This document shows, piece by piece, positions 3,882 to 61,494 of a stretch of DNA of 61,494 bases (within the stretch, counting starts at the first letter, position 1; the number at the start of each line of letters is the position of its first letter). The notes under the pieces were generated by a model, which saw only the letters and a list, made by a program, of their open reading frames with translations, was not told where the DNA came from and made no database searches. The DNA comes from Variovorax sp. (GTDB lineage: Bacteria; Pseudomonadota; Gammaproteobacteria; Burkholderiales; Burkholderiaceae_C): positions 1-61,494 of the forward strand of contig JAGIBP010000019.1 in NCBI GenBank assembly GCA_017744285.1. The letters are read 5' to 3'. The position numbers and the translations under genes were made by a program.

Positions 3882-5896
3882 TGTCCCTTGAGCAAGAGGT
3901 GCGCGAAGCCTTCGCGCGGGATGGGGTGCTGTCGCAGGCCGCGGAGCAGTTCCGCGAGCGCGAGGGGCAGACGCAGATGGCGGTCGCCGTGGCGCGCACG
4001 ATCGCCGACGGGGGCGTGCTGGTCGTCGAGGCCGGAACCGGTGTCGGCAAGACCTTCTCGTACCTCGTGCCGGCGCTGCTGAGCGGCGAGCGCGTGGTGC
4101 TGTCCACCGCCACGAAGGCGCTGCAGGACCAGCTCTTCGGGCGCGACCTGCCGCGCCTGGTGGGCGCGCTGGGCCTGCCGGTGCGCACCGCCTTGCTCAA
4201 GGGGCGGGCCAGCTACCTGTGCCTGCACCGGCTCGATCTCGCGCGCCACGATGCATCGCCCGAGCGCGCCGCGGTGCGAACGCTGGCGAAGATCGAGCAG
4301 TGGTCGAAGGCCACGCGCACGGGCGATCTGGCCGAGCTGCCGGGCCTGGACGAGCGCTCGCCGCTGATTCCGCTGGTGACCTCTACCCGCGAGAACTGCC
4401 TGGGCGCCCAGTGTCCTCAGTTCAAACCCTGCCATGTGAACGCCGCCCGGCGCGAGGCGATGGCGGCCGACGTCGTCGTCATCAACCATCACCTGTTCTT
4501 TGCGGACCTCGCGGTGCGCGAATCGGGCATGGCAGAGCTGCTGCCCACCGTGCGCGTGGTGGTGTTCGACGAGGCGCACCAGCTCAACGAGACCGGCGTG
4601 CAGTTCCTCGGTGTCCAGCTCGGGAGCGGGCAGGCGCTGGATTTCGCCCGCGACGTGCTGGCGGCCGGCCTGCAGCATGCGCGCGGGCTGGTCGACTGGC
4701 AGCAGCTGGTGGGCGGGGTCGAGCAGGCGGCGCGCGAGCTTCGGCTGTCCGTTGGCAAGCAATACCCCGGCGCCAAACTGCGCTGGTCCGGCGACTCGCC
4801 GGAGGGGGTTCCGATGCACTCGTGGCAGTCGGCGCTGGAGGCGCTCGGCCACGCTTTCGCCGCGGCGGCGCGCGGGCTCGACACGGTGAGCGAACTTTCG
4901 CCGGATTTCGTTCGTCTCCACGAGCGCGCCGAGCAACTGGCCGAGCGCGCATCGCGGTTCGCGCAGGCGTGCCCGTCCGGGTCGGTGCGCTGGGTGGACG
5001 TGGGGTCTCACCTGCGGCTGATCGAGTCGCCGCTGGACATCGCTGAAGCGGTTCGCACGCGGGTGCTCAAGTCGGAAGGCACCGAGACGCAGGACGACGA
5101 TGGTCGCGCCTGGGTGTTCACTTCGGCCACGCTGGGCGACGATCCGCGGCTCAAGTGGTTCACCGAACCGTGCGGACTCGAGGACGCCGAAGTCCTGCGC
5201 GTGCGCAGCCCCTTCGACTATGCGCGGCAGGCGGCGCTCTACGTGCCGCGCCGCTTTCCGAAGCCCAACGACCCAATGCATGGCCAGGAGGTGGCACGTC
5301 TTGCGGCGCGGGGCGCGCGCCGGCTGGGCGGTCGCACGCTGGTGCTGACGACCACCTTGCGGGCCCTGCGCACGATCGGCGACGCCATCCGGCAGGATTT
5401 CGAGTCGCTCGAACCCGCGTTACGCCCCGAAGTGCTGGTGCAGGGAGAACTGCCCAAGCGCATGCTCATGGACCGTTTCCGCGAAGGCGCGGACGCCGGT
5501 CGCGTCGGCTGCGTGCTGGTGGCCTCGGCCTCGTTCTGGGAGGGCTTCGACGCACCGGGCGATGCCCTCCAGCTGGTGGTGATCGACAAGCTGCCGTTTC
5601 CGCCGCCCAACGATCCGCTGGTGGAGGCGCGCTCGCAGCGCCTCGAATCGCAGGGCCGTAGCGCCTTCAGCGACTATTCGCTGCCCGAAGCGGCCGTGGC
5701 GCTCAAGCAGGGGGCGGGCCGGCTGATCCGCCGCGAGACCGACACGGGCGTGCTGGTGATCTGCGACACCCGGCTCGTCGCGATGGGCTATGGGCGGCGC
5801 CTGCTCGCTGCGCTGCCGCCGATGCGGCGCATCGAGGACGAGGCGGGCTTCGAGGCGGCGCTGGCCGAGCTCCAAAACAAATTGCCCGGGGAATGA
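3881..5896 (+). CDS. yoaA: YoaA/DinG-type Fe-S DNA helicase
   Basis: A 671-residue superfamily 2, XPD-like helicase. Walker A GTGVGKT is at residues 52-58 and the DEAH box near 230-233. Four cysteines near residues 113, 172, 177 and 183 (SYLCLHR, then NCLGAQC and PCH) are placed as the [4Fe-4S] ligands of XPD/DinG helicases. C-terminal motifs FWEGFD and QGAGRLIR are present. There is no N-terminal exonuclease domain, and the length matches YoaA rather than long DinG proteins. A role in unwinding damaged DNA or replication intermediates is inferred from the family. The 3' end lies inside an inverted repeat shared with bamD. Confidence 0.88.
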   Translation: MSLEQEVREAFARDGVLSQAAEQFREREGQTQMAVAVARTIADGGVLVVEAGTGVGKTFSYLVPALLSGERVVLSTATKALQDQLFGRDLPRLVGALGLPVRTALLKGRASYLCLHRLDLARHDASPERAAVRTLAKIEQWSKATRTGDLAELPGLDERSPLIPLVTSTRENCLGAQCPQFKPCHVNAARREAMAADVVVINHHLFFADLAVRESGMAELLPTVRVVVFDEAHQLNETGVQFLGVQLGSGQALDFARDVLAAGLQHARGLVDWQQLVGGVEQAARELRLSVGKQYPGAKLRWSGDSPEGVPMHSWQSALEALGHAFAAAARGLDTVSELSPDFVRLHERAEQLAERASRFAQACPSGSVRWVDVGSHLRLIESPLDIAEAVRTRVLKSEGTETQDDDGRAWVFTSATLGDDPRLKWFTEPCGLEDAEVLRVRSPFDYARQAALYVPRRFPKPNDPMHGQEVARLAARGARRLGGRTLVLTTTLRALRTIGDAIRQDFESLEPALRPEVLVQGELPKRMLMDRFREGADAGRVGCVLVASASFWEGFDAPGDALQLVVIDKLPFPPPNDPLVEARSQRLESQGRSAFSDYSLPEAAVALKQGAGRLIRRETDTGVLVICDTRLVAMGYGRRLLAALPPMRRIEDEAGFEAALAELQNKLPGE

Positions 5897-5907
5897 CCCG
5901 GGCAATT
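5880..5907 (-). terminator. Hairpin terminator between convergent yoaA and bamD
   Basis: A perfect 11-bp stem, AATTGCCCGGG with CCCGGGCAATT, encloses the 6-base loop GAATGA, which contains the yoaA stop codon. On the minus strand the stem is followed by a T-rich run (TTTGTTTTG), so it should terminate bamD transcripts. On the plus strand there is no T run. Confidence 0.7.
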
Positions 5908-5932
5908 CACGAGATTCAGGGCGGCAAGCGAC

Positions 5933-6742
5933 CTACCAGACCTTCCACCAGGGATCGTCCTTGGCGCGGAAGCCGCGGCTCAGGAACTCGCTGGAGGGAT
6001 AGTTCTGGGTCAGCACCCGCTTGGCGTCGTCGCGCAGCTCGTTCATGCCGAGCTTGTCGTATGACATGAACATGATGTAGAGCGCCTCTTCGAGCGCAGG
6101 TACTTCGCGGTAGTCCGCCAGCGCGAGCTGCGCGCGGTTGATGGCTGCGAGGTAGGCGCCGCGATCGTAGTAGTAGCGCGCCACGTGCACCTCATACGCC
6201 GCCAGCGAATTGACGATGTAGTTCATGCGCTGGCGTGCATCCGGCGTGTACTTCGAGTCGGGGAAGCGGGTGATCAGCTCCTTGAACGACTCGAACGATT
6301 CCTTCGCGGCCTTCTGGTCGCGCTCCGAGAGGTCCTGGCGCGTCATGAACGAGAACAGGCCCAGGTCGTCGTTGAAGTTGATCACGCCCTTGAGGTAGAG
6401 CGCGTAGTCGATCGCGGGGCTGGCGGGGTGGAGCTTGATGAAGCGATCCAGGGTGGCGATGGCGGCCGCCTTTTCGCCCGACTTGTATTGCGCGTAAGCC
6501 TTGTCGATCTGTGCCTGCTGGGCCAGCGGCGTTCCGGCGGCGCGGCCTTCGAGCTTCTCGAACAGGGGCACGGCCTTGTCGTAGGCGCCGGAATCGGCCT
6601 CGTCCTTGGCTTCCGAGTAGATGCGGTTCGGGCTCCAGTTCGCGGTCCTGTCGGCATTGGTCGACGAACAGCCGGCCACCAGCCATGCGGCTGCGCACAG
6701 GGCCAGCCAGCCGGGGACAACCGATAATTTGGCGCGAAACAT
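5933..6742 (-). CDS. bamD: Outer membrane assembly lipoprotein BamD
   Basis: A 269-residue outer-membrane lipoprotein of the BAM complex, which inserts beta-barrel proteins together with BamA. The signal peptide ends in the lipobox LVAGC with Cys25. The mature part consists of TPR-type helical repeats, with the recognisable RFPDSKYTPDAR and the family C-terminal region YPSSEFL. ATG 6742 places the lipobox at the expected distance. The gene is head-to-head with rluD with only 14 bases between starts. A second BAM lipoprotein, bamB, lies 10 kb away on the other strand. Confidence 0.95.
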   Translation of the reverse strand: MFRAKLSVVPGWLALCAAAWLVAGCSSTNADRTANWSPNRIYSEAKDEADSGAYDKAVPLFEKLEGRAAGTPLAQQAQIDKAYAQYKSGEKAAAIATLDRFIKLHPASPAIDYALYLKGVINFNDDLGLFSFMTRQDLSERDQKAAKESFESFKELITRFPDSKYTPDARQRMNYIVNSLAAYEVHVARYYYDRGAYLAAINRAQLALADYREVPALEEALYIMFMSYDKLGMNELRDDAKRVLTQNYPSSEFLSRGFRAKDDPWWKVW

Positions 6743-6756
6743 CAAATAAGGCTTTC

Positions 6757-7782
6757 GTGAAACAGGTGCCCTCAATTATATCGGCGAGCCCCTCCGACGC
6801 CCTCCCGGAGGGGGCGGACCACGAGGAGGCCGGCGATCTCTCCGAGGCGAGCGAGATCCGCACCTTCCTGATCGGCCAGGCCCAGCACGGCGAGCGTCTG
6901 GACCGGGCGCTTGCCGCGCTGGTGCCCGAGTTCTCGCGCAGCTACCTCCAGCAGCTGATCGATGCCGGCATGGTGGAGATCGAGGGGCGGGTGGCCGCCA
7001 AGCCATCGGCGACGGTGCATGCCGGCGCGTCGGGGCGCATCGAGCTGCGCCCGACGCCGCAAAGCCAGGCCTTCCGGCCCGAGGCGATGCCGATCCAGGT
7101 GCTGCACGAGGACGAGCATCTGCGGATCATCGACAAGCCCGCCGGGCTGGTCGTGCATCCCGCGCCCGGCCACTGGAGCGGGACCCTGCTCAACGGCCTG
7201 CTGGCGCTCGACCCGCGGGCGGCGCTGCTGCCGCGTGCCGGGATCGTTCACCGGCTCGACCGCGACACGAGCGGGCTGATGGTGGTCGCGCGCAGCCGGG
7301 CGGCCATGGACGCGCTGGTCGCGCTCATCGCCGCCCGCGAGGTGAAGCGGCAGTACGTCGCGATGGCGCATCGCAGCTGGCAGGGTGCGAGCGCCCGACA
7401 TGTGGACAGCCCGATCGGCCGCGACCCGCGCAATCGCCTGCGCATGGCCGTGGTCGACCTGGAGCGGCATCCCGGCAAGCCGGCGCGAACGCTGATCGAG
7501 GTGCTCGACAGCAACGACCAGGGCTGCGCGGTGCGCTGCACGCTCGAGACGGGGCGCACCCACCAGATCCGCGTTCACATGGCGTCGATCGGCCATCCGC
7601 TGGTCGGCGACGCGTTGTACGGGGGCGCCGCGGCGGCCGGTCTCGCGCGCCAGGCCCTGCACGCCTTCAGGCTCGGGTTCGTGCACCCGGTCACGGGGCG
7701 CGAGATGGTGTTCCAGTCGCCGCCGCCGGCCGATCTCGTGCAGGGCATGTCGACCTGGGGGCTGGATTACAATCGCGCCTGA
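6757..7782 (+). CDS. rluD: 23S rRNA pseudouridine synthase RluD
   Basis: A 341-residue RluA-family enzyme that converts uridines of helix 69 in 23S rRNA (1911/1915/1917 in E. coli) to pseudouridine. An N-terminal S4 RNA-binding domain spans about residues 40-105. The catalytic motif HRLDRDTSG follows, with the nucleophilic Asp near residue 168, and then RTHQIRVH. GTG 6757 was chosen because it has an AAGG ribosome-binding site 6 bases upstream; the longer open frame runs through bamD in antisense. A -10-like GATAAT (6723-6728) lies inside bamD. Confidence 0.92.
   Translation: MKQVPSIISASPSDALPEGADHEEAGDLSEASEIRTFLIGQAQHGERLDRALAALVPEFSRSYLQQLIDAGMVEIEGRVAAKPSATVHAGASGRIELRPTPQSQAFRPEAMPIQVLHEDEHLRIIDKPAGLVVHPAPGHWSGTLLNGLLALDPRAALLPRAGIVHRLDRDTSGLMVVARSRAAMDALVALIAAREVKRQYVAMAHRSWQGASARHVDSPIGRDPRNRLRMAVVDLERHPGKPARTLIEVLDSNDQGCAVRCTLETGRTHQIRVHMASIGHPLVGDALYGGAAAAGLARQALHAFRLGFVHPVTGREMVFQSPPPADLVQGMSTWGLDYNRA
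6775..6780 (-). promoter_or_regulatory. bamD -10 element inside the rluD reading frame
   Basis: The plus-strand ATTATA reads as a perfect TATAAT on the minus strand, 32 bases before the bamD ATG, giving a predicted leader of about 25 bases. It lies inside rluD codons, because the rluD start is at 6757. No convincing -35 is visible at 16-18 bases. Confidence 0.45.
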
Positions 7783-7911
7783 CGGTCCCCAGGGGCCGCG
7801 CCGGCGACCTGATGTCGGCCTCGCGTTGCGTATGCCGCGTGCCCGCAGCGCCTTCTTCCATCCCTCTGAACAAGCGTCCCCCAAGACGCCTTTTCCCGGA
7901 TAACGCGAACC

Positions 7912-8673
7912 ATGAATACGGCGGATGCCAAGCGCATTCTCGAAACCGCCTTGATCTGTTCGACACAGCCGTTGCCGGTGCGCGAGTTGCGCGTGCTGTT
8001 CGACGACGAACTGGGCGCGGACACCATCAAGTCGCTGTTGAACGAGCTGCAGGAAGAGTGGACGCAGCGCGGCCTCGAACTCGTGAGCGTGGGCAGCGGC
8101 TGGCGCTTCCAGAGCCGGCCCGAGATGCGCGATCACCTCGACCGTCTGCACCCCGAGAAGCCGCCGCGCTACACCCGAGCGGCGCTGGAAACGCTGGCGA
8201 TCATCGCGTACCGCCAGCCCGTCACCCGTGGCGACATGGAAGACATCCGGGGCGTGACCATCAACTCGCAGATCCTCAAGCAGCTCGAGGACCGCAGCTG
8301 GATCGAGGTCATCGGCCACCGCGAAACGGTCGGCCGGCCCGCGCTCTATGCGACGACGCGCCAGTTCCTCGACGATCTCGGCCTCGCGTCGCTCGACCAG
8401 TTGCCGGTGATCGAGTCGCCGGCCCAGCAAGGCGCGCTGATCGACGCGCTGGACCAGGCCGCCGGCGGCGAACAGTCGGCCCTGCCCATCGACGAGCCGG
8501 CTGCTGCGGCGGAACCGCCGTCCGCGCCCGAGGTCGTGGCCGCGCCCGCGCCCGATGCCGTCGAACCCGCTTCCACGTCTTCATCCACCCCTGCCGCCAC
8601 CGAAGCCGCGCCTGAAGAGGCCGACACCCCCGCTGTCCTTCCGGAACCCGACCATGAGCCCCAACGATCCTGA
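7912..8673 (+). CDS. scpB: Segregation and condensation protein B (ScpB)
   Basis: A 253-residue protein whose first 165 or so residues form the two winged-helix domains of ScpB, the dimeric partner of ScpA in the SMC-ScpAB condensin. Typical stretches are [14 protein letters not shown] and IRGVTINSQ. After about residue 170 an Ala/Pro/Glu-rich disordered tail follows, as is common in Burkholderiales. No scpA is present in the window. The 3' end overlaps rluB by 20 bases, so translation is probably coupled. The preceding 129-base gap holds no feature I can define. Confidence 0.92.
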
Positions 8674-10339
8674 CGCTGCAGCAACGCTGCCGACCGAACC
8701 TGTTTCAGAGGAGCGCGGGGAGCTCGCGCCGGCTCCTGCCGGGGAGCCTGCCGCGGCCGCGGCCGCCGAAGGCTCGGGTGAAGCGCCGCGCAAGCGTCGG
8801 CCCCGGCGCCGCAAGCCGGCGGACGAAGCGCAGGCCCAGCCTCTGGAGGCGCAGGCCGTCGAAGCCGAAGCGCCTGCGCTGGAGGCGCCCGGGTCGCCGG
8901 TGCGGCCCGAGGTCGAGCCCGTGCCGGCGGCTGATGCGCCCGTGCAGGTCGAGGAGGCAGGAGATGACGAAGAAGACGACGAAGAGCCGGACGAGGACGA
9001 GGACGACCTGGATCGCGCGCGCCGCGCGGCCGAGCGCGAGCAGCGCAATGCGCCGCCGCCGGAGCCCATTCGGTTTGCCGACGTCATCTCGGGCCAGTTC
9101 GACGCCGACGAGGACAGTCCCGAGGTGCCGCCGCTCAAGCGCGTGCTGCTGCCCGAGGCCGATTCGCCGAAGCTGCACAAGGTGCTCGCGCAGGCGGGGC
9201 TCGGCTCGCGCCTCGAAATGGAGCAGCTCATCCTCCAGGGCCGGATCTCGGTGAACAACGAGCCGGCCCATATCGGCCAGCGCATCCAGTTCGGCGACCA
9301 GGTCAAGCTCAACGGCAAGCCGATCCGCTTCCGCATCGCGCCGCCGCCGGCGCGCGTGATCGCCTATCACAAGCCCGTCGGCGAGGTCGTCACGCACGAC
9401 GATCCGCAGAACCGGCCCACCGTCTTTCGCAAGCTGCCGAGGCTGCAGCAAGGCAAGTGGCAGTCGGTCGGCCGGCTGGACCTGAATACCGAAGGGCTGC
9501 TGCTCTTCACGAGCTCCGGCGAACTCGCGAACCGGCTCATGCATCCGCGCTTCGGCCTGGAGCGCGAATATGCCGTGCGGGTGCTCGGCGCGCTCAGCAG
9601 CGAGGAGCGGCAGCGCCTGCTCGACGGCGTGCGGCTCGACGACGGCATGGCCCAGTTCGGCACCATCGAAGAGGGCGGCGGCGAGGGGTCCAACTGCTGG
9701 TACCGCGTCACGATCTCCGAAGGCCGCAACCGCGAGGTGCGCCGCCTGTTCGAGTCGGTCGGGCACGCCGTGAGCCGCCTCATCCGGATCCGCTACGGCG
9801 CCATGGTGCTGCCGCGCGGGCTCAAGCGCGGGGCCTGGATGGAGCTCGACGAGCGCGACATCCGTTCGCTGGTCCAGGCGGCTGGCGGACCGGTCGAGCG
9901 GACCGGCCGCGCGGGCGGTGCCGGAAAGGCCCAGGAGGGCGGCGGACGCAACGGCCGCGGTGGCCGCAAGCGCCGCGGCAATCGCAACGGCAATGGCGAT
10001 GGCGGACCGCGAAGCGACCGCGGCGACCGCGAGGCGCCGATCCCGAATCCGCTGGCGCACGGCCCGGCGGCGCGCTCCGAACGCGGCGCCAAGGGGGCGC
10101 CCCAGGGGCGTCGAAGCCGGGGCGGGCAAGGGCAGGGCAAGGGGCGGCAGGCCGAGGACCGCGCCCAGGGCGGCGGCAACCAGCCCGATCCGATGAAGAC
10201 CTCGCTGGGCTACATCGGTGCCGACAGCTTCTCGCGCCAGCGCAAGGAGCAGCGGCAGGGATCCCGGCGCGGCGGCTCGTCCGGCGGCGGCGGCTTCGGC
10301 GGGCAGGGCGGCGGCGGTGGCCGCCGGCGCGGGCGCTGA
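8654..10339 (+). CDS. rluB: 23S rRNA pseudouridine synthase RluB with long disordered tails
   Basis: A 561-residue protein with a RsuA/RluB-type core. The S4 domain starts near residue 171 ([15 protein letters not shown]) and the catalytic GRLDLNTEG has its Asp near 274. E. coli RluB modifies U2605 of 23S rRNA. The first 170 residues are an Ala/Pro/Glu-rich extension with an acidic run near residues 104-120. The last 150 are a basic Gly/Arg/Asn-rich tail with RGG-like repeats. The tails make it nearly twice the size of the E. coli enzyme. Start ATG 8654 lies inside the scpB 3' end. Confidence 0.9.
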
Positions 10340-10364
10340 TATCCAGCCGGCGCCGCGGCGTTTT

Positions 10365-10382
10365 ACCCGCATTTTTGCGGGT
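10365..10382. terminator. Hairpin after rluB
   Basis: A perfect 7-bp stem, ACCCGCA with TGCGGGT, encloses a TTTT loop 25 bases after the rluB stop. No T run follows on the plus strand, so termination may be incomplete; a T run precedes it. Confidence 0.45.
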
Positions 10383-10400
10383 TGCCCCTGTCGCGCCGGT

Positions 10401-10406
10401 TAAAAT
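10401..10406 (+). promoter_or_regulatory. Candidate -10 element for ndk
   Basis: TAAAAT lies 84 bases before the ndk start, just after the rluB hairpin. No clear -35 is found at normal spacing. It is the only AT-rich hexamer in this 150-base gap. Confidence 0.35.
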
Positions 10407-10489
10407 CAAAGGCTTTGTCAAGGGCCGCAATCCCGTGTTGCGGCACTGATGGAACGCATTCAACTCCAAGCACTCAGGAAACTACTTCA

Positions 10490-22731: not shown

Positions 22732-23631
22732 ATGAACAGAATCGGATTCATCGTTTCCACGCTTCTCGTCCTGCTCGCGCTCGCCAGCTCGACGCTCTTC
22801 GTGGTCGACCAGCGCCAGTTCGGCGTGGTGTACGCCCTGGGGCAGATCAAGGAAGTCATCACCGAGCCGGGCCTGAACGTCAAGCTCCCGCCGCCGTTCC
22901 AGAACGTGTCGTACATCGACAAGCGCCTGCTGACGCTGTCGAGCCTCGATCCCGAGCCGATGCTGACGGCCGAGAAGCAGCGCGTGGTGATCGACTGGTA
23001 CGTGCGCTGGCGCATCACCAACCCATCGGAATACATCCGCAACGTCGGCCTCGACGAGAACGCCGGCGCCGTGCAGCTCAATCGCGTGGTGCGCAATGCA
23101 TTCCAGGAAAACATCAACAAGCGCACGGTGCGCGACCTGATCTCGGTGCGCCGCGAGCAGTTGATGGCCGATGTCCAGCGCGAGGTGCTCGAAGTGGTGA
23201 AGGGCAGCAAGCCGTGGGGCGTCGACATCGTCGACGTGCGGATCACCCGCGTCGACTACGTCGAGGCGATCACCGAGTCCGTCTACCGCCGTATGGAGGC
23301 CGAGCGCAAGCGCGTGGCCAACGAACTGCGTTCCACCGGCGTGGCCGAGGGCGAGAAGATCCGTGCCGATGCCGATCGCCAGCGCGAGGTGATCGTCGCC
23401 AACGCCTACCGGGACGCGCAGAAGATCAAGGGCGAGGGTGATGCCCGCGCCGCGAGCCTGTACGCCGACGCGTTCGGGCGCGATCCGCAGTTCGCGTTGT
23501 TCTACCGGAGCCTCGAAGCCTACAAGCAGAGCTTCAACAAGAAGAGCGACGTGATGATCCTGGACCCATCGTCGGACTTCTTCCGTTCGATGCAGAGCTC
23601 TGGGTCGACGTCCAACGCCCCGCGGCGCTGA
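22732..23631 (+). CDS. hflC: FtsH protease modulator HflC
   Basis: A 299-residue SPFH protein, partner of HflK in the FtsH-HflKC complex of the inner membrane. An N-terminal membrane segment lies at about residues 5-25 (FIVSTLLVLLALASSTLFVV). It is followed by VVDQRQFGVVYALGQIK and a C-terminal helical region with RMEAERKRVANE. It begins 11 bases after hflK and is surely co-transcribed. Confidence 0.95.
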   Translation: MNRIGFIVSTLLVLLALASSTLFVVDQRQFGVVYALGQIKEVITEPGLNVKLPPPFQNVSYIDKRLLTLSSLDPEPMLTAEKQRVVIDWYVRWRITNPSEYIRNVGLDENAGAVQLNRVVRNAFQENINKRTVRDLISVRREQLMADVQREVLEVVKGSKPWGVDIVDVRITRVDYVEAITESVYRRMEAERKRVANELRSTGVAEGEKIRADADRQREVIVANAYRDAQKIKGEGDARAASLYADAFGRDPQFALFYRSLEAYKQSFNKKSDVMILDPSSDFFRSMQSSGSTSNAPRR

Positions 23632-55518: not shown

Positions 55519-55902
55519 ATGCAGAGACTCTCACGCGCCCTGATGGTGGCTGCCGTGGCGGGCGGCCTGGCGATGAGCGGGCAGGCCTTCAACGGCATGC
55601 AAGGGAGCGGCGGCAGCGGTGGGGCACGTGGCATGCACGGGGGCGGCGCGCGTTTCGCGGCCGTCGCGCCGGGGCAGCACGCGTTTTTCGGCCATCCGGG
55701 CTTCGCGGGGCGGCCGGTGTTTCTTGCCCGCCGCGGTGTCCCGCTCCACCGGGTCGTGGTGGTCGGGGGGCCGGTGTTCTTCGGGCCGCCGCCGGTGGTG
55801 TTCGTGAGCGGCGTTCCGGCGATCTGGTATTGCCAGAACCCGATCGGCTATTTCCCGACGATCCAGGCCTGCCCCGTCGGCTGGATCGAGATGACGCAAT
55901 AG
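55519..55902 (+). CDS. Small exported Gly/Phe/Val-rich protein
   Basis: A 127-residue protein with a signal peptide (about residues 1-23, ending GQAF). The mature part is rich in Gly, Val and aromatic residues (GMHGGGARF, HRVVVVGGPVFFGPPPVVFV). It ends with two Cys residues in IWYCQNPIGYFPTIQACPVGW, a C-terminal pattern seen in many small secreted proteobacterial proteins of unknown role. GGAGG lies 6 bases before ATG 55519. It follows the reductase operon after 68 bases. Confidence 0.78.
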   Translation: MQRLSRALMVAAVAGGLAMSGQAFNGMQGSGGSGGARGMHGGGARFAAVAPGQHAFFGHPGFAGRPVFLARRGVPLHRVVVVGGPVFFGPPPVVFVSGVPAIWYCQNPIGYFPTIQACPVGWIEMTQ

Positions 55903-55903
55903 C

Positions 55904-56779
55904 TCAGTCCGCCAGCGTGAGCAGCGGCACGTCGCGCTCGCGCGCCAGGGTCTCCAGTTCGGCGCGCGTGCGCTGGGCGATCCAGCGCGCGATCGCTTCA
56001 TGCGTCTCGGCCGACGCCATGTCTTTCGACGCCGCGCCCGCCGCCTCGCACAGGCGCGCGGCGAAGTGCGGCTCCAGCGCCGCCACCGCCACGCGGCCGT
56101 CGGCGCACCGGTAGACGCGATAGCCCGCATGCGCGCCCCCCACGGCGCCCCCTGGCGCGGTGAGGCCCCAGGTGCGCGGCAGCGCGAGCCAGTCGGCGGC
56201 GGCGTTGAGCGCGACTTCGAGGTACACGCCCCGCGAGCGATCGGGGCGCAGCGCGGCCTGGAGCACGGCTTCGCTCGCTAGCAGCGCACCGCCCATGTCG
56301 GCATAGAGCGTGGGCGGCAGTTCGGTGCCGGTGACGAGGCCGCTCTCGGCGAGGTAGGTGAGGTCGTGCCCCGGCTCTTCCGCGCGCACGCCCGGCGCGC
56401 CGACGATCGCGACCTGCGAGAGCCCGGGGTGACGCGCATGCAGCACACGCCAGTCGAGCCCGAGCTTCGCGAGCGCCGAAGGCCGGAACGAAGTCAGCAG
56501 CACGTCGGTGGATTCGAGCAGGCGATCCAGGTGCCGGCGGCCGTCCTCGGTCTTGAGGTCGGCGACCTCGATGGCGACGCCTTCGTGCAGCGCCGCGTAG
56601 GCGGCGCGGTTGTAGTGGCCCATGGGATCGCCTGCCGGCGGTTCGAGCTTGGTGCAGGCGGCACCCATGGCGCGGCAGCGCATCAGCGCGGCGGGGCCGG
56701 GCAGGTTGAGCGCGAGGCTCAGCACGCGAAGGCCGGCCAGCGGCGCGAAGGCGGCGTCGGCGGAAGAGGGCACGGACAT
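55904..56779 (-). CDS. CaiB/BaiF family III CoA-transferase, short
   Basis: A 291-residue protein of the family that moves CoA between acids (or racemises alpha-methylacyl-CoA). The N-terminal part has LRVLSLALNLPGPAA and the CoA region KLEPPAGDPMG. The catalytic Asp is placed in TLYADMGGALLASEAVL. It is about 80-100 residues shorter than typical members (about 380-400), but both ends look natural, as in the short AMACR-like subgroup. The substrate is unknown. It is divergent from the DECR-like gene over 110 bases. Confidence 0.87.
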   Translation of the reverse strand: MSVPSSADAAFAPLAGLRVLSLALNLPGPAALMRCRAMGAACTKLEPPAGDPMGHYNRAAYAALHEGVAIEVADLKTEDGRRHLDRLLESTDVLLTSFRPSALAKLGLDWRVLHARHPGLSQVAIVGAPGVRAEEPGHDLTYLAESGLVTGTELPPTLYADMGGALLASEAVLQAALRPDRSRGVYLEVALNAAADWLALPRTWGLTAPGGAVGGAHAGYRVYRCADGRVAVAALEPHFAARLCEAAGAASKDMASAETHEAIARWIAQRTRAELETLARERDVPLLTLAD

Positions 56780-56889
56780 GGATCGGATCCCCGGAATGAA
56801 AACCTGGCCGGGAGCTTACCGGTTCGCAGGCGCCGATCTACGATGCGCGCTGCACATCCGATCCACCCGACGAATCCAAGGAGACCCGC

Positions 56890-57792
56890 ATGTACCAATC
56901 CGATCTCATGGCCGGCCAGCGCATTCTCGTGACCGGCGGCGGCACCGGCCTCGGCCGCGCCATGGCCGAGCGCTTCCTCAGCCTGGGCGCCGACGTCGCG
57001 ATCTGCGGCCGCCGCCAGAGCGTGGTCGAGGAGACCGCGAGCGCCTGGCGCGCGCAGTTCCCGGGCCGGCGCGCCGACGCCTTCGGCGTGGACATCCGCA
57101 ACGCGCAGGCGGTGGAAGAGATGGTGGAGGGCCTCTGGCAATCCGGCGGCCTCACGGGGCTGGTCAACAACGCGGCGGGCAACTTCGTCTCGCCGACCGA
57201 GGCGCTCTCGCCTCGCGCCTTCGACGCGATCGCGAACATCGTCTTCCACGGCACGTTCTACGTCACCCAGGCGGTGGGCAAGCGCTGGATCGGCGAGGCC
57301 AAGGCAGGCCAGTGGAAGCAGGGCGATCCCTACCGCAGCGTGATGAGCATCATCGTGACCTGGGTCGACAACGGCGGCCCCTACGTGGTGCCTTCGGCGA
57401 TGAGCAAGGCCGGCGTCGAGGTGATGACCAAGTCGCTGGCCACCGAGTGGGCACGCTACGGCATCCGCCTCAATGCGGTCGGTCCGGGCGAGATCCCGAC
57501 CGAGGGCATGAGCAAGCGCCTGAACCCCGGCGAGGAACCCGGCGCGCGCAGCAAGGCCTTCAACCCGATGGCGCGCACCGGCGAGATGAGCGAGCTGCAG
57601 AACCTCGCGACCTTCCTCATGGCGCGCGGCCAGTGCGACTGGCTCAACGGCCAGAGCATCATGATGGACGGCGGCGGCGCGCTGGCGACCGGCGGCAACT
57701 TCTACGAGCTGCGCCAGTGGAGCGATGCCGACTGGCTCGCCGCGCGCGAGCGCATCGAGGCGCAGAACCAGAAGGACAAGGCGCAGCGCTGA
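56890..57792 (+). CDS. SDR-family 2,4-dienoyl-CoA reductase-like enzyme
   Basis: A 300-residue short-chain dehydrogenase. The NADP-binding motif TGGGTGLGRAMA is near residue 15 and NNAAGNF near 95. In place of the classical YxxxK it reads PSAMSKAGVEVM, with Ser at the Tyr position. This is the hallmark of the mitochondrial-type 2,4-dienoyl-CoA reductase (DECR) subgroup used in oxidation of unsaturated fatty acids. AAGGAG lies 6 bases before the ATG. It abuts the convergent EamA gene with no gap. Confidence 0.87.
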   Translation: MYQSDLMAGQRILVTGGGTGLGRAMAERFLSLGADVAICGRRQSVVEETASAWRAQFPGRRADAFGVDIRNAQAVEEMVEGLWQSGGLTGLVNNAAGNFVSPTEALSPRAFDAIANIVFHGTFYVTQAVGKRWIGEAKAGQWKQGDPYRSVMSIIVTWVDNGGPYVVPSAMSKAGVEVMTKSLATEWARYGIRLNAVGPGEIPTEGMSKRLNPGEEPGARSKAFNPMARTGEMSELQNLATFLMARGQCDWLNGQSIMMDGGGALATGGNFYELRQWSDADWLAARERIEAQNQKDKAQR

Positions 57793-58722
57793 TCAGGCAC
57801 GCTTCGGCCCGCGCAGCGAGGCCAGGGCGCGCAGGCCGATGCCCTGGTTGATCATCAGGCCCAGCAGCACCGCCGCGGTGCCGGCCCACTGCGCGGCGCT
57901 CGGATGCTCGCCGAAGCAGGCGGCGGCAGCGGCCAGTCCGACCACCGGCACCAGCAGCGAGAACGGCACCACGCGGCCGGCCGGATGGCGTTGCAGCAGC
58001 CGCGTCCACAGGCTGTAGGCCAGCAGCGTCGCGAACCACGCGAGATAGAGCACCGACAGAACCGCGCCGAGGTCGAGGTTCGCGAGCTGGTGCGCCACCG
58101 CCGAGGGGCCTTCCATGGCCAGCGCGAAGACGGCGAAGGGCACGATCGGCACCAGGCTGCTCCACACGATGAAGCCGAAGGCGTCGTAGGCCGGCGCCGC
58201 GCGCGTCGCGAAGCGCACCACGATGTTCGAGCCCGCCCACATGAAGGCCGCCGAGAGCGTGAGGACGAAGCCGATCAGCGTCATCTGCCCCGGTCCTTCG
58301 CCGTGCGCGGTGGCGATCAGCAGGAGGCCGCCCAGCGCGACCGCGATGCCGATCCATTGCCGCCGATGCGCGCGCTCGCCCAGCAGCGGCGCCGCGAGCA
58401 GCAGCGTGAAGAAGGCCTGCGTCTGCATCACGACCGAGGCCATGCCGGCGGTCATGCCCAGCTTGATGCCGAGGAAGAGAAAGCCGAACTGGCCCAGCCC
58501 CTGCGCGAGCCCATAGGCCAGCAGGTAGCGCGGCGGCAGCGCCGGCCTGCGCACGAAGAGAAGCAGCGGCAGCGAGGCCGCCGCGAAGCGAAGGGCGCCC
58601 AGCAGCATCGGGCTCAGCTCGCGCAGGCCGAGCTTCATGACGACGAAGTTCAGGCCCCAGATCACCACCACGGCCAGGGCGCGGCCGAGGTCGGCGCGGC
58701 TCAGCCCGGCTGGTGCGCTCAT
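57793..58722 (-). CDS. EamA/DMT-family transporter
   Basis: A 309-residue membrane protein with ten predicted helices made of two EamA repeats, like the exporters of amino acids and small metabolites (VVIWGLNFVVMKLGLRELSP, then AFMWAGSNIVVRFA). No substrate can be deduced. ATG 58722 overlaps the stop of the epimerase gene (ATGA), making it the last gene of a four-gene minus-strand operon. Confidence 0.9.
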   Translation of the reverse strand: MSAPAGLSRADLGRALAVVVIWGLNFVVMKLGLRELSPMLLGALRFAAASLPLLLFVRRPALPPRYLLAYGLAQGLGQFGFLFLGIKLGMTAGMASVVMQTQAFFTLLLAAPLLGERAHRRQWIGIAVALGGLLLIATAHGEGPGQMTLIGFVLTLSAAFMWAGSNIVVRFATRAAPAYDAFGFIVWSSLVPIVPFAVFALAMEGPSAVAHQLANLDLGAVLSVLYLAWFATLLAYSLWTRLLQRHPAGRVVPFSLLVPVVGLAAAAACFGEHPSAAQWAGTAAVLLGLMINQGIGLRALASLRGPKRA

Positions 58723-59735
58723 GAGGAGGCCTCCGTGCGCCGCACCGCGGCGCGAGCGCCCTGGGTGTCGCGCGCCGCCTTGAACGCCAGGAAGGCTTCG
58801 AGGCTGGTCTTGCGCGGCACGTAGCCGAACTCTTCTTTCAGGCGCCGGTTCGCGAGGACCGGGCGGTAGCGCAGGAAGTCGAGCTGCTCGGGCCCGTAGC
58901 GCGTCAGGCCGAGTTGCGAGCCGATCGCGAGCGCGGCCTTCAGCAGGGGCGCCGGCAGCACCAGCATCGGCTTGCGCAGGATCGAGGCGATCTGCGGCAG
59001 CGTGAGCGCGCCGTCGCCCGCGACGTTGAAGCAGCCGGCGCGGCCGCTGGTGATCGCGTGGACCACGCAGCCGGTCACGTCCTCGTCCCAGATGAAGACG
59101 AAGGGACTGTCGCTGCCGCGGATGGCGAGGATGCGCGGCTTGTCGAACAGCGCCGTGATCTGGTTGTGTACGTTCTCGCCAAGGATGGTGCCGATGCGCA
59201 GCACCGTCTGGCGCAACGCCGGATGCGAGACGCGGTAGGCCGCGAGCATCTCCTCGACCAGCCGCTTGTGGTGCGCATAGGCGAAGGCGGGGTTGCCGCG
59301 CAGCGCGTCGCCCTCGTCGATCCAGGCCGGGTTGTCGGCGTGGTAGCCGTAGGCCGCGCCGCTGGACGACACCACCACGTGGCCCACGCCGTGCGCCACG
59401 CAGGCTTCGAGCACGTTGCGCGTGCCGAGCACGTCGACCGAGTATTCGAACTGGCGCGTGCTGCCGCGGCCCGGCGTCACGATCGAGGCGAGGTGGACCA
59501 CGGTGTCGATCGCATGCTCGGCGAAGAGGGCGCCGATCTGCGGCGTGCGCACGTCCTGCTCGGCATAGACCACGCCGGGCAGCCGCCGCGCGGCGGGCAC
59601 CTCGCGCACGTCGAGCGCGACCACGTGCTGGATGTCGGGCAGGCGCGCGAGCGCGGCGACCACGGTGCGGCCGAGAAAACCGTCGGCGCCGGTGACGAGC
59701 ACGCGCCGCGCCGCGAGGGGTGGGGAGACTTCCAT
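58719..59735 (-). CDS. NAD-dependent epimerase/dehydratase family protein
   Basis: A 338-residue extended SDR. The nucleotide-binding motif VTGADGFLGRTV is near residue 12. The catalytic triad region is SSSGAAYG, then YAHHKRLVEE with the YxxxK. It may act on a sugar nucleotide or on a sterol- or flavonoid-like substrate; the context does not decide. It lies 14 bases after the symporter gene and overlaps the EamA gene. Confidence 0.87.
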   Translation of the reverse strand: MEVSPPLAARRVLVTGADGFLGRTVVAALARLPDIQHVVALDVREVPAARRLPGVVYAEQDVRTPQIGALFAEHAIDTVVHLASIVTPGRGSTRQFEYSVDVLGTRNVLEACVAHGVGHVVVSSSGAAYGYHADNPAWIDEGDALRGNPAFAYAHHKRLVEEMLAAYRVSHPALRQTVLRIGTILGENVHNQITALFDKPRILAIRGSDSPFVFIWDEDVTGCVVHAITSGRAGCFNVAGDGALTLPQIASILRKPMLVLPAPLLKAALAIGSQLGLTRYGPEQLDFLRYRPVLANRRLKEEFGYVPRKTSLEAFLAFKAARDTQGARAAVRRTEASS

Positions 59736-59749
59736 GGAAAAGGGTCGAT

Positions 59750-60670
59750 TCAGGCCGAACGCACGGCGGGGGCGGAGAGAGGGCGGCGGGCCCACCAGGC
59801 GGCGAGCCCGAGCCCGGCGATGATGTCCCAGAAGCCCCACACGCCGGCGACCACCGCCATGCCGCCGAGGCCGCCGAAGAAACTGAAGATCAGCACCAGC
59901 CCGAGACCCGCATTGCGGATGCCGACCTCGAAACTGACTGCACGCCGATCGTACTCCGCCAGCCCCGTGGCCCTCGCGCAGGCGTAGCCGGTGGCGAAGG
60001 CCAGCGCGTCGTGCAGCGCCACGGCCAGCAGGACGAGCCCCACGTAGTCGATGAAGTAGCGCCAGTTGCCCGCGATCGCGGCGAGGATGAAGCCGATCAG
60101 GCAGATGAAGCTCAGGATGCGCGCCGGCTTCTTGATGCGTTCGGTGAGCTTCGGCAGGACGTGCGCGAAGGCGATCCCGATCACGAAGGGCGCGCCGATG
60201 ATCGCGACGATGTGCACCACCATCTCCGCCGGGTCGAGCGCGATGGTCTTGAGCAGCGGCGCCGCCGTCGGATGGATGCCGCCCCAGAACGCGAAGTTCA
60301 GCGGCATCACCACGATCGAGAGCAGGTTCGACAGCGCGGTCATCGAGACCGACAGCGCCACGTTGCCGCCCGCGCGGTGCGTGAGGATGTTCGACACATT
60401 GCCCGGCGGGCAGCAGGCCACCAGGATCATGCCCAGGGCGATGCTCGGCGCCGGCTTGAGCAGCAGCGTCAGCACGAAGGTCACGGCCGGCAGCACGATG
60501 AACTGCGCCGCGACGCCGACCGCCATCGCGACCGGCATGCGCATCACGCGCCGGAAATCGGCGATGCGCGTGTCCAGCGCGATGCCGAACATCAGGAAGC
60601 CGAGCACCGCGTTCAGCAGCACCAGCGAGGCCGGGTTGAAGTTGAGGCGCACCTCGTCGACTGGGAGCAT
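59750..60670 (-). CDS. Bile acid:sodium symporter (BASS) family transporter
   Basis: A 306-residue membrane protein with about nine or ten helices. Family signatures are FGIALDTRIADFRRV, CCPPGNVSNILTHRAGGN and FEVGIRNAGLGLVL. Members import organic anions with sodium, not only bile acids. GAGGAA lies 5 bases before the ATG. It is 29 bases downstream of the chimeric monooxygenase frame. In its normal context it may import the substrate of that monooxygenase. Confidence 0.9.
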   Translation of the reverse strand: MLPVDEVRLNFNPASLVLLNAVLGFLMFGIALDTRIADFRRVMRMPVAMAVGVAAQFIVLPAVTFVLTLLLKPAPSIALGMILVACCPPGNVSNILTHRAGGNVALSVSMTALSNLLSIVVMPLNFAFWGGIHPTAAPLLKTIALDPAEMVVHIVAIIGAPFVIGIAFAHVLPKLTERIKKPARILSFICLIGFILAAIAGNWRYFIDYVGLVLLAVALHDALAFATGYACARATGLAEYDRRAVSFEVGIRNAGLGLVLIFSFFGGLGGMAVVAGVWGFWDIIAGLGLAAWWARRPLSAPAVRSA

Positions 60671-60699
60671 GGCGATTCCTCGTGAGCCTCGTGGCGCGG

Positions 60700-61392
60700 T
60701 CAGGCCAGCGCGGCGCTGGCCTGGCGCACCGCGCGGCGGTAGGTGTCCTTGTGAACGTAGTAGGACATGCGCTCGAGCTGCAGGTAGTTGTAGCCGCCGG
60801 AGAGGTCGGGCGTCGGCCCGCACTTGGCCTTCTTGAGCGCCGCGGCCGCCGGCCGGCCCTCGGCCTGCGCCTTGAAATAGCGCGCCACCAGTTCGGCCTG
60901 CTCGTAGCGGCCCTGCCAGCCGATGCCGCTCGCCTCGATCATGCCGAGCACAGCGAGGTTGTCGAAGCCCGGCGCGAAGATGTTGAGATACAGCTTCGGC
61001 GCCATGCCCTGCCAGTTGAGCCAGGTACGGTCGATGAACGGGTAGTGCAGCTTGTAGCCGGTGGCGCATAGGATCAGGTCGTAGTCGCGCGCGCTGCCGT
61101 CCTTGAAGTGCACCGTGTCGCCGTCGAGGCGCGCGATGTCGCCGCGCACGCCGATGTCGCCGTGGCCGATGTGGTGCAGCACCAGCGAGTTGACCACGGG
61201 GTGCGACTCGTACATCTTGTAATCGGGCCGGGGCAGGCCGAAGCGCGAAGGATCGCCGGTGAACCAGCCCAGCACGAGGGTGTCCATCTTCTGCAGGTCT
61301 TGCTGGTTCATGCCCACCGGCAGGCACAGTTGCCCCATGCTGCAAGTGGAGCAACGGGGCGACATCTCGGTGACGGGAATGGATGTTAGCAA
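60700..61392 (-). pseudogene. Chimeric frame: FNR N terminus fused to C-terminal half of flavin monooxygenase
   Basis: A 230-codon open frame made of two unrelated parts. Codons 1-40 (61392-61273) read as the start of an FNR-type regulator: CSTCSMGQLC gives the CxxCxxxxxC [4Fe-4S] ligands at residues 14, 17 and 23, followed by LPVGMNQQDLQKMDTLV. From about codon 41 (61272) the frame continues as the C-terminal part of a flavin-containing monooxygenase (LGWFTGDPSRFGL, LILCATGYK, GIGWQGRYEQAELVARYF). The FAD- and NADP-binding GxGxxG motifs of the monooxygenase and the CRP domain of FNR are both missing, so neither function can be intact. Start is TTG 61392. Confidence 0.8.
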
Positions 61393-61434
61393 TTGGAACC
61401 TGCTTGTAATGGGCGGCGAGGGCGCAATGTATGC

Positions 61435-61440
61435 ATTTTA
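61435..61440 (-). promoter_or_regulatory. Candidate -10 of the FNR-type gene start
   Basis: TAAAAT on the minus strand lies 42 bases before the TTG start of the FNR-like N terminus, in clearly AT-richer DNA than the rest of the window. No good -35 is seen. A separate TTGACA (61472-61477, plus strand) points out of the window and may be the -35 of a divergent gene. Confidence 0.35.
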
Positions 61441-61494
61441 ACGCGCGATGTGATGCGGTAGGGAGTTGCAGTTGACATTTGGTGTGCTCGTCAG

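Follow-up and report, generated by a model that had tools for sequence, protein, structure and literature searches.

The right edge of the window (by which we mean the whole stretch of DNA analysed, 61 494 nt) carries a minus-strand open reading frame, 61392..60700, with a TTG start and 230 codons. Its product would begin with the N terminus of an FNR regulator (~40 residues) and continue with the C-terminal sequence (~190 residues) of a flavin-containing monooxygenase (FMO). The FNR part has the N-terminal cluster motif C-x2-C-x5-C in the form C14-x2-C17-x5-C23, and the Pfam scan of the frame gave only PF00743 (profile positions 267–396 of 532; 43.6 bits against a cut-off of 22). This confirms the original prediction that an FNR N terminus runs without a stop into the last part of an FMO. 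The window is one complete contig, C18 (1–61494), from a draft genome with 107 contigs and 4.09 Mb (completeness 69%, contamination 2.2%); it therefore ends on the right where the contig ends, and the fusion sits at the contig tip.

Several elements needed by either parent protein were looked for in the 230-aa frame. No fourth cluster cysteine was found: the FNR part ends at residue ~40, and the later cysteines (109 and 191) fall in FMO sequence. In PMC4214427 the cluster of E. coli FNR is described as held by four cysteines, Cys122 among them; in a Cupriavidus FNR (P0121) the position of the fourth is taken by C116. The cNMP-binding-type and Crp HTH domains, both present in a Cupriavidus FNR, were absent from the frame in the Pfam scan. 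In FMOs, GxGxxG motifs are the FAD and NADP motifs, and FxGxxxHxxxY is a further FMO motif. The motif search found no FxGxxxHxxxY in the frame and no GxGxxG at the proper place for either cofactor; these motifs are located on another contig of the same draft, C71. Two GxGxxG strings do occur in the frame (residues 76 and 156), at places other than those of the FAD and NADP motifs, and the string of residue 76 recurs in C71 beside the two true motifs. The absence of a CRP-like domain and of the N-terminal FMO motifs had been foreseen, and both searches agree with it.

With the fourth cysteine, the CRP-like domain, the DNA-binding domain and both cofactor motifs of the FMO (FAD and NADP) all missing, we would expect no function of the 230-aa product, were the frame present in a cell at all. 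A functional fusion of FNR and monooxygenase that responds to O2, rated much less likely than other readings in the original prediction, has the open frame with its C-x2-C-x5-C motif to recommend it. Such an enzyme would nevertheless have to manage without an equivalent of E. coli Cys122 (PMC4214427) and without CRP-type domains, with its GxGxxG and FxGxxxHxxxY motifs outside the frame, and it was not seen among the 133 protein hits examined; judged from sequence, it is extremely improbable.

The outer part of the tip, 61295..61494 (minus strand), is probably foreign DNA of a Cupriavidus-type fnr gene, comprising the promoter region and the first ~33 codons; the fnr-like DNA extends to the last bases of the window. 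A search with 61270–61494 in a sample of 399 genomes from across the order gave matches in 17, the own genome included; besides the own genome only two, G350 and G194, matched at length (77–79%). Both belong to genus g100 in f32, a family other than that of the window. When 299 genomes of f32 were sampled, 59 had a match, with the highest identities in G718 (94%), G642 (94%) and G698 (92%), all of g100, over 221–223 of the 225 bases with the promoter included. The FNR protein of G642, used as a query in named genomes, led to 40 loci; in C. pinatubonensis HN-2 and Cupriavidus sp. UYMMa02A the identity to the fnr-like tip was 95.6% over 226 bases. Overall, the tip and the nearest fnr loci of Cupriavidus, upstream DNA included, have 92–96% identity over 221–226 bp, in agreement with the suggestion that the DNA upstream looks like an fnr promoter region.

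At the protein level the FNR half (residues 1–44) matched 13 proteins, 10 from Cupriavidus, one from Burkholderiaceae bacterium 16 and two without an organism name; all 13 carry CRP/FNR domains only. The likeness to Cupriavidus Fnr (e.g. of C. numazuensis, C. laharis and C. pinatubonensis) covers the promoter region and the first ~40 codons, whereas the real protein has 241 aa with PF00027, PF13545 and PF00325, and the frame described here leaves FNR after ~40 residues.

Within the own genus, 27 of 61 genomes hold a protein 47–50% identical to Cupriavidus FNR; the remaining matches are at 30–38% (the own genome's best at 32%), and in 12 of the 61 genomes no match was obtained at E 1e-20. No counterpart of the outer ~220 bp of C18 was found elsewhere in the 69%-complete assembly of the own genome, and none of the contig ends compared in this draft had an exact match of at least 21 bases from the C18 tip. 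The own genome may hold a closer FNR outside its assembled part; because of this incompleteness, a missing second fnr copy says little.

The inner part, 60700..61173 (minus strand), is the 3′-end of an FMO gene (PF00743) native to C18, as indicated by identity within the genus, by gene order in relatives and by Pfam. Sixteen of 36 other genomes of the genus matched the FMO part at length (81–89%), and each of these matches ends at query positions 567–595, the zone of the join. With the full-length FMO of one relative, G019, as a query, the top named match among the best 120 of 5004 was from Variovorax sp. J2P1-59 (92%), and many further Variovorax proteins were among the named matches near the top, which makes Variovorax the probable genus of the window. 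The FMOs of Variovorax and relatives resemble the frame over the C-terminal ~190 residues; unlike it, they have ~440 aa, with the N-terminal nucleotide-binding motifs that here stand on C71. Among plasmid records, 27 gave an FMO-type match; the one ranked first has 40% identity, and two records fall in the 60–80% band. Solved structures matching the full-length FMO were general FMO and Baeyer-Villiger relatives only and have no bearing on the fusion.

The missing half of the FMO gene was found on C71, which terminates at base 23466 within an FMO gene whose N-terminal ~314 residues (start assumed) contain GAGPSG, GAGNSG and FNGELMHTSAY. The last 97 bases of C71 are identical to 61077..61173 (minus strand) of the window, an exact terminal overlap. 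Next to this overlap, on the side of 61292–61174, 102 bases have about 79–80% identity to C71, and in the ungapped alignment there is no similarity beyond the join. In G019 the segment 55902–61275 of C18 corresponds to 5043–10415 of locus L194, and 19409–23466 of C71 to 14307–10217 of the same locus; the two are neighbouring and overlapping parts of one locus, in which the FMO frame is open throughout. The same arrangement was observed in G024 and G027. When the two halves were searched separately, as had been proposed, a full-length Cupriavidus Fnr and a complete FMO locus in relatives were both recovered.

The original prediction left a choice between a deletion, a recombination and an assembly mis-join. 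Of these, a simple deletion within one genome was rejected, since its two halves point to different taxa: that of fnr resembles Cupriavidus (92–96%), whereas the closest FNR proteins of the own genus are only 47–50% identical to Cupriavidus FNR. The other two are weighed below; a mis-join, or chimeric tip, is favoured.

The join had been placed near 61272. This position falls inside what we found to be a zone of ~25 bp, 61270..61294 (minus strand), rather than a point, the zone fitting both parents in the same frame. We compared the 25-mer 61294–61270 with 11 fnr and 25 FMO loci. Mismatches to the 25-mer number 2–4 in five close Cupriavidus fnr loci and 6–8 in four more distant ones, places that bear two names (L067/L270 and L069/L269) being counted once; among the FMO loci, L259 and L260 have 3 mismatches, three others 4–5 and the remaining 20 of 25 have 6–9. 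The closest fnr and FMO copies (L272 and L260) are identical to each other in 22 of the 25 positions, and 13 bases is the longest run without a mismatch between them. Random 25-mers of the window, compared with their best place in L260, gave 5–10 mismatches in 60 of 60 trials. The reading of the join as a very short microhomology was dropped, as there are FMO relatives that match through 61294.

The join zone encodes QKMD-x-LV in both FNR and FMO in the same phase, and any join within it would be seamless; no selection has to be invoked for the open frame. The retention of the frame, which a random join would produce one time in three, is a point against an artefact. A natural in-frame fusion of an FNR Fe-S N terminus and an FMO C-terminal part, formed by recombination via this common 25-bp coding stretch in an unsampled Burkholderiales strain, has only a very slight chance of being correct. 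The same fusion in independent strains, which the original prediction took as evidence against an artefact, was absent from all 133 public protein hits examined (13 to the FNR half and the best 120 of 361 to the whole frame); none of the 120 whole-frame hits has C-x2-C-x5-7-C.

Between the join zone and the native FMO part lies an FMO stretch, 61174..61269 (minus strand), which probably comes from a second source, its nearest relatives being FMO genes from other genera within the family. The segment 61292–61174 is 87% identical to L259, L260 and L261, FMO genes of other genera, and 77–83% identical to the seven nearest same-genus FMO genes (93–101 alignable bases), with values of up to 86% for some same-genus genes that are more distant. 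Farther inside, the relation is reversed: 61173–61077 has 89–96% identity to the seven nearest same-genus genes versus 77–82% to those of other genera, and 61076–60703 has 87–90% versus 80–84%. Some more distant same-genus FMO genes reach 85–87% in 61275–61174, and the second FMO source (the third source overall) is for this reason uncertain. The simplest reading of these identities is that the tip changes source twice within ~320 bases; it looks like a mosaic of three sources. Cupriavidus was rejected as the origin of the FMO stretch at the join: a search of 60 genomes of that genus with 61160–61290 gave only two matches, of 26 bp.

We also compared the contig ends of the draft genome with each other (186 of 214 ends; 24 reading N and 4 others were left out). 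Twelve of the 186 ends, in six pairs (C84/C72, C76/C14, C75/C77, C7/C20, C38/C90 and C28/C30), share exactly 119 bp at their tips. We take such exact sharing to point to a graph assembler that used 119 as its k-mer size, and the six pairs resemble forks that a de Bruijn graph assembly left unresolved. A number of further ends are, like those of C71 and C18, identical to another contig over 77–103 bases before the two part; in C70/C27, C62/C14, C57/C85 and C79/C30 the identity to another contig covers 31–103 bases. Strain-variant or chimeric sequence may thus be present at further tips of this draft as well.

Given a Cupriavidus-like fnr on the outside, the other FMO half on C71, a locus unbroken in three relatives and no fusion in 133 protein hits, we consider the fusion to be very probably a chimeric contig tip and not a real gene. 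C18 would break within an ordinary FMO gene, and its last ~320 bases would probably derive from other organisms, the chimera having arisen in a metagenome-type assembly or in library preparation. A foreign FMO branch may have entered at the conserved stretch near 61173, from a mixture of strains or species, and the step into fnr may have passed through the ~25-bp stretch 61294–61270, nearly identical in Cupriavidus fnr and this type of FMO. This second step could be a short k-mer link made by the assembler or a template switch in the library.

Two observations weigh on the assembler variant. The longest exact run between fnr and FMO in the join zone is 13 bp, and the usual smallest assembler k-mers are longer than that; a pure k-mer link therefore needs true parents closer than those compared, while a library chimera would not. 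Also, the overlap of C71 and C18 is 97 bp and not the 119 bp of the six pairs, a point against a graph-type link. K-mers common to different species are given as one cause of chimeric contigs in a review (PMC7299287). By comparison of sequences, the tip resembles the metagenome chimeras described there, in which a single contig combines several species that meet at common sequence; parts of different taxonomic origin stand at the tip, and the partner half lies elsewhere in the assembly.

A real recombination or horizontal transfer would have put a Cupriavidus-type fnr beside a truncated FMO gene in some bacterium of the sample, yielding a pseudogene. The seamless, in-frame join agrees with this, and the ~25-bp stretch common to the parents could have supported such an event. 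Still, the foreign fnr DNA amounts to only ~220 bp and reaches the contig end, a third source is seemingly present in the tip, the partner half of the FMO gene was found at C71 and no other example appeared in the 133 protein hits; we regard recombination as very unlikely, and keep to the chimeric tip.

One could draw a caution from this case: where two unrelated genes of different organisms have a short coding stretch in common, and in the same phase, a stop-free in-frame fusion can arise from it at a contig end. The taxonomy of each half, a search for the partner half at other tips and the gene order in relatives are cheap to obtain, and they expose artefacts without reads.

Being adjacent in three relatives, C71 (14000–23466, locus L005) and C18 (window 55900–61275) would scaffold together. 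By eye, the FMO seems to be preceded on C71 by a short-chain dehydrogenase gene and followed on C18 by a gene for a membrane symporter.
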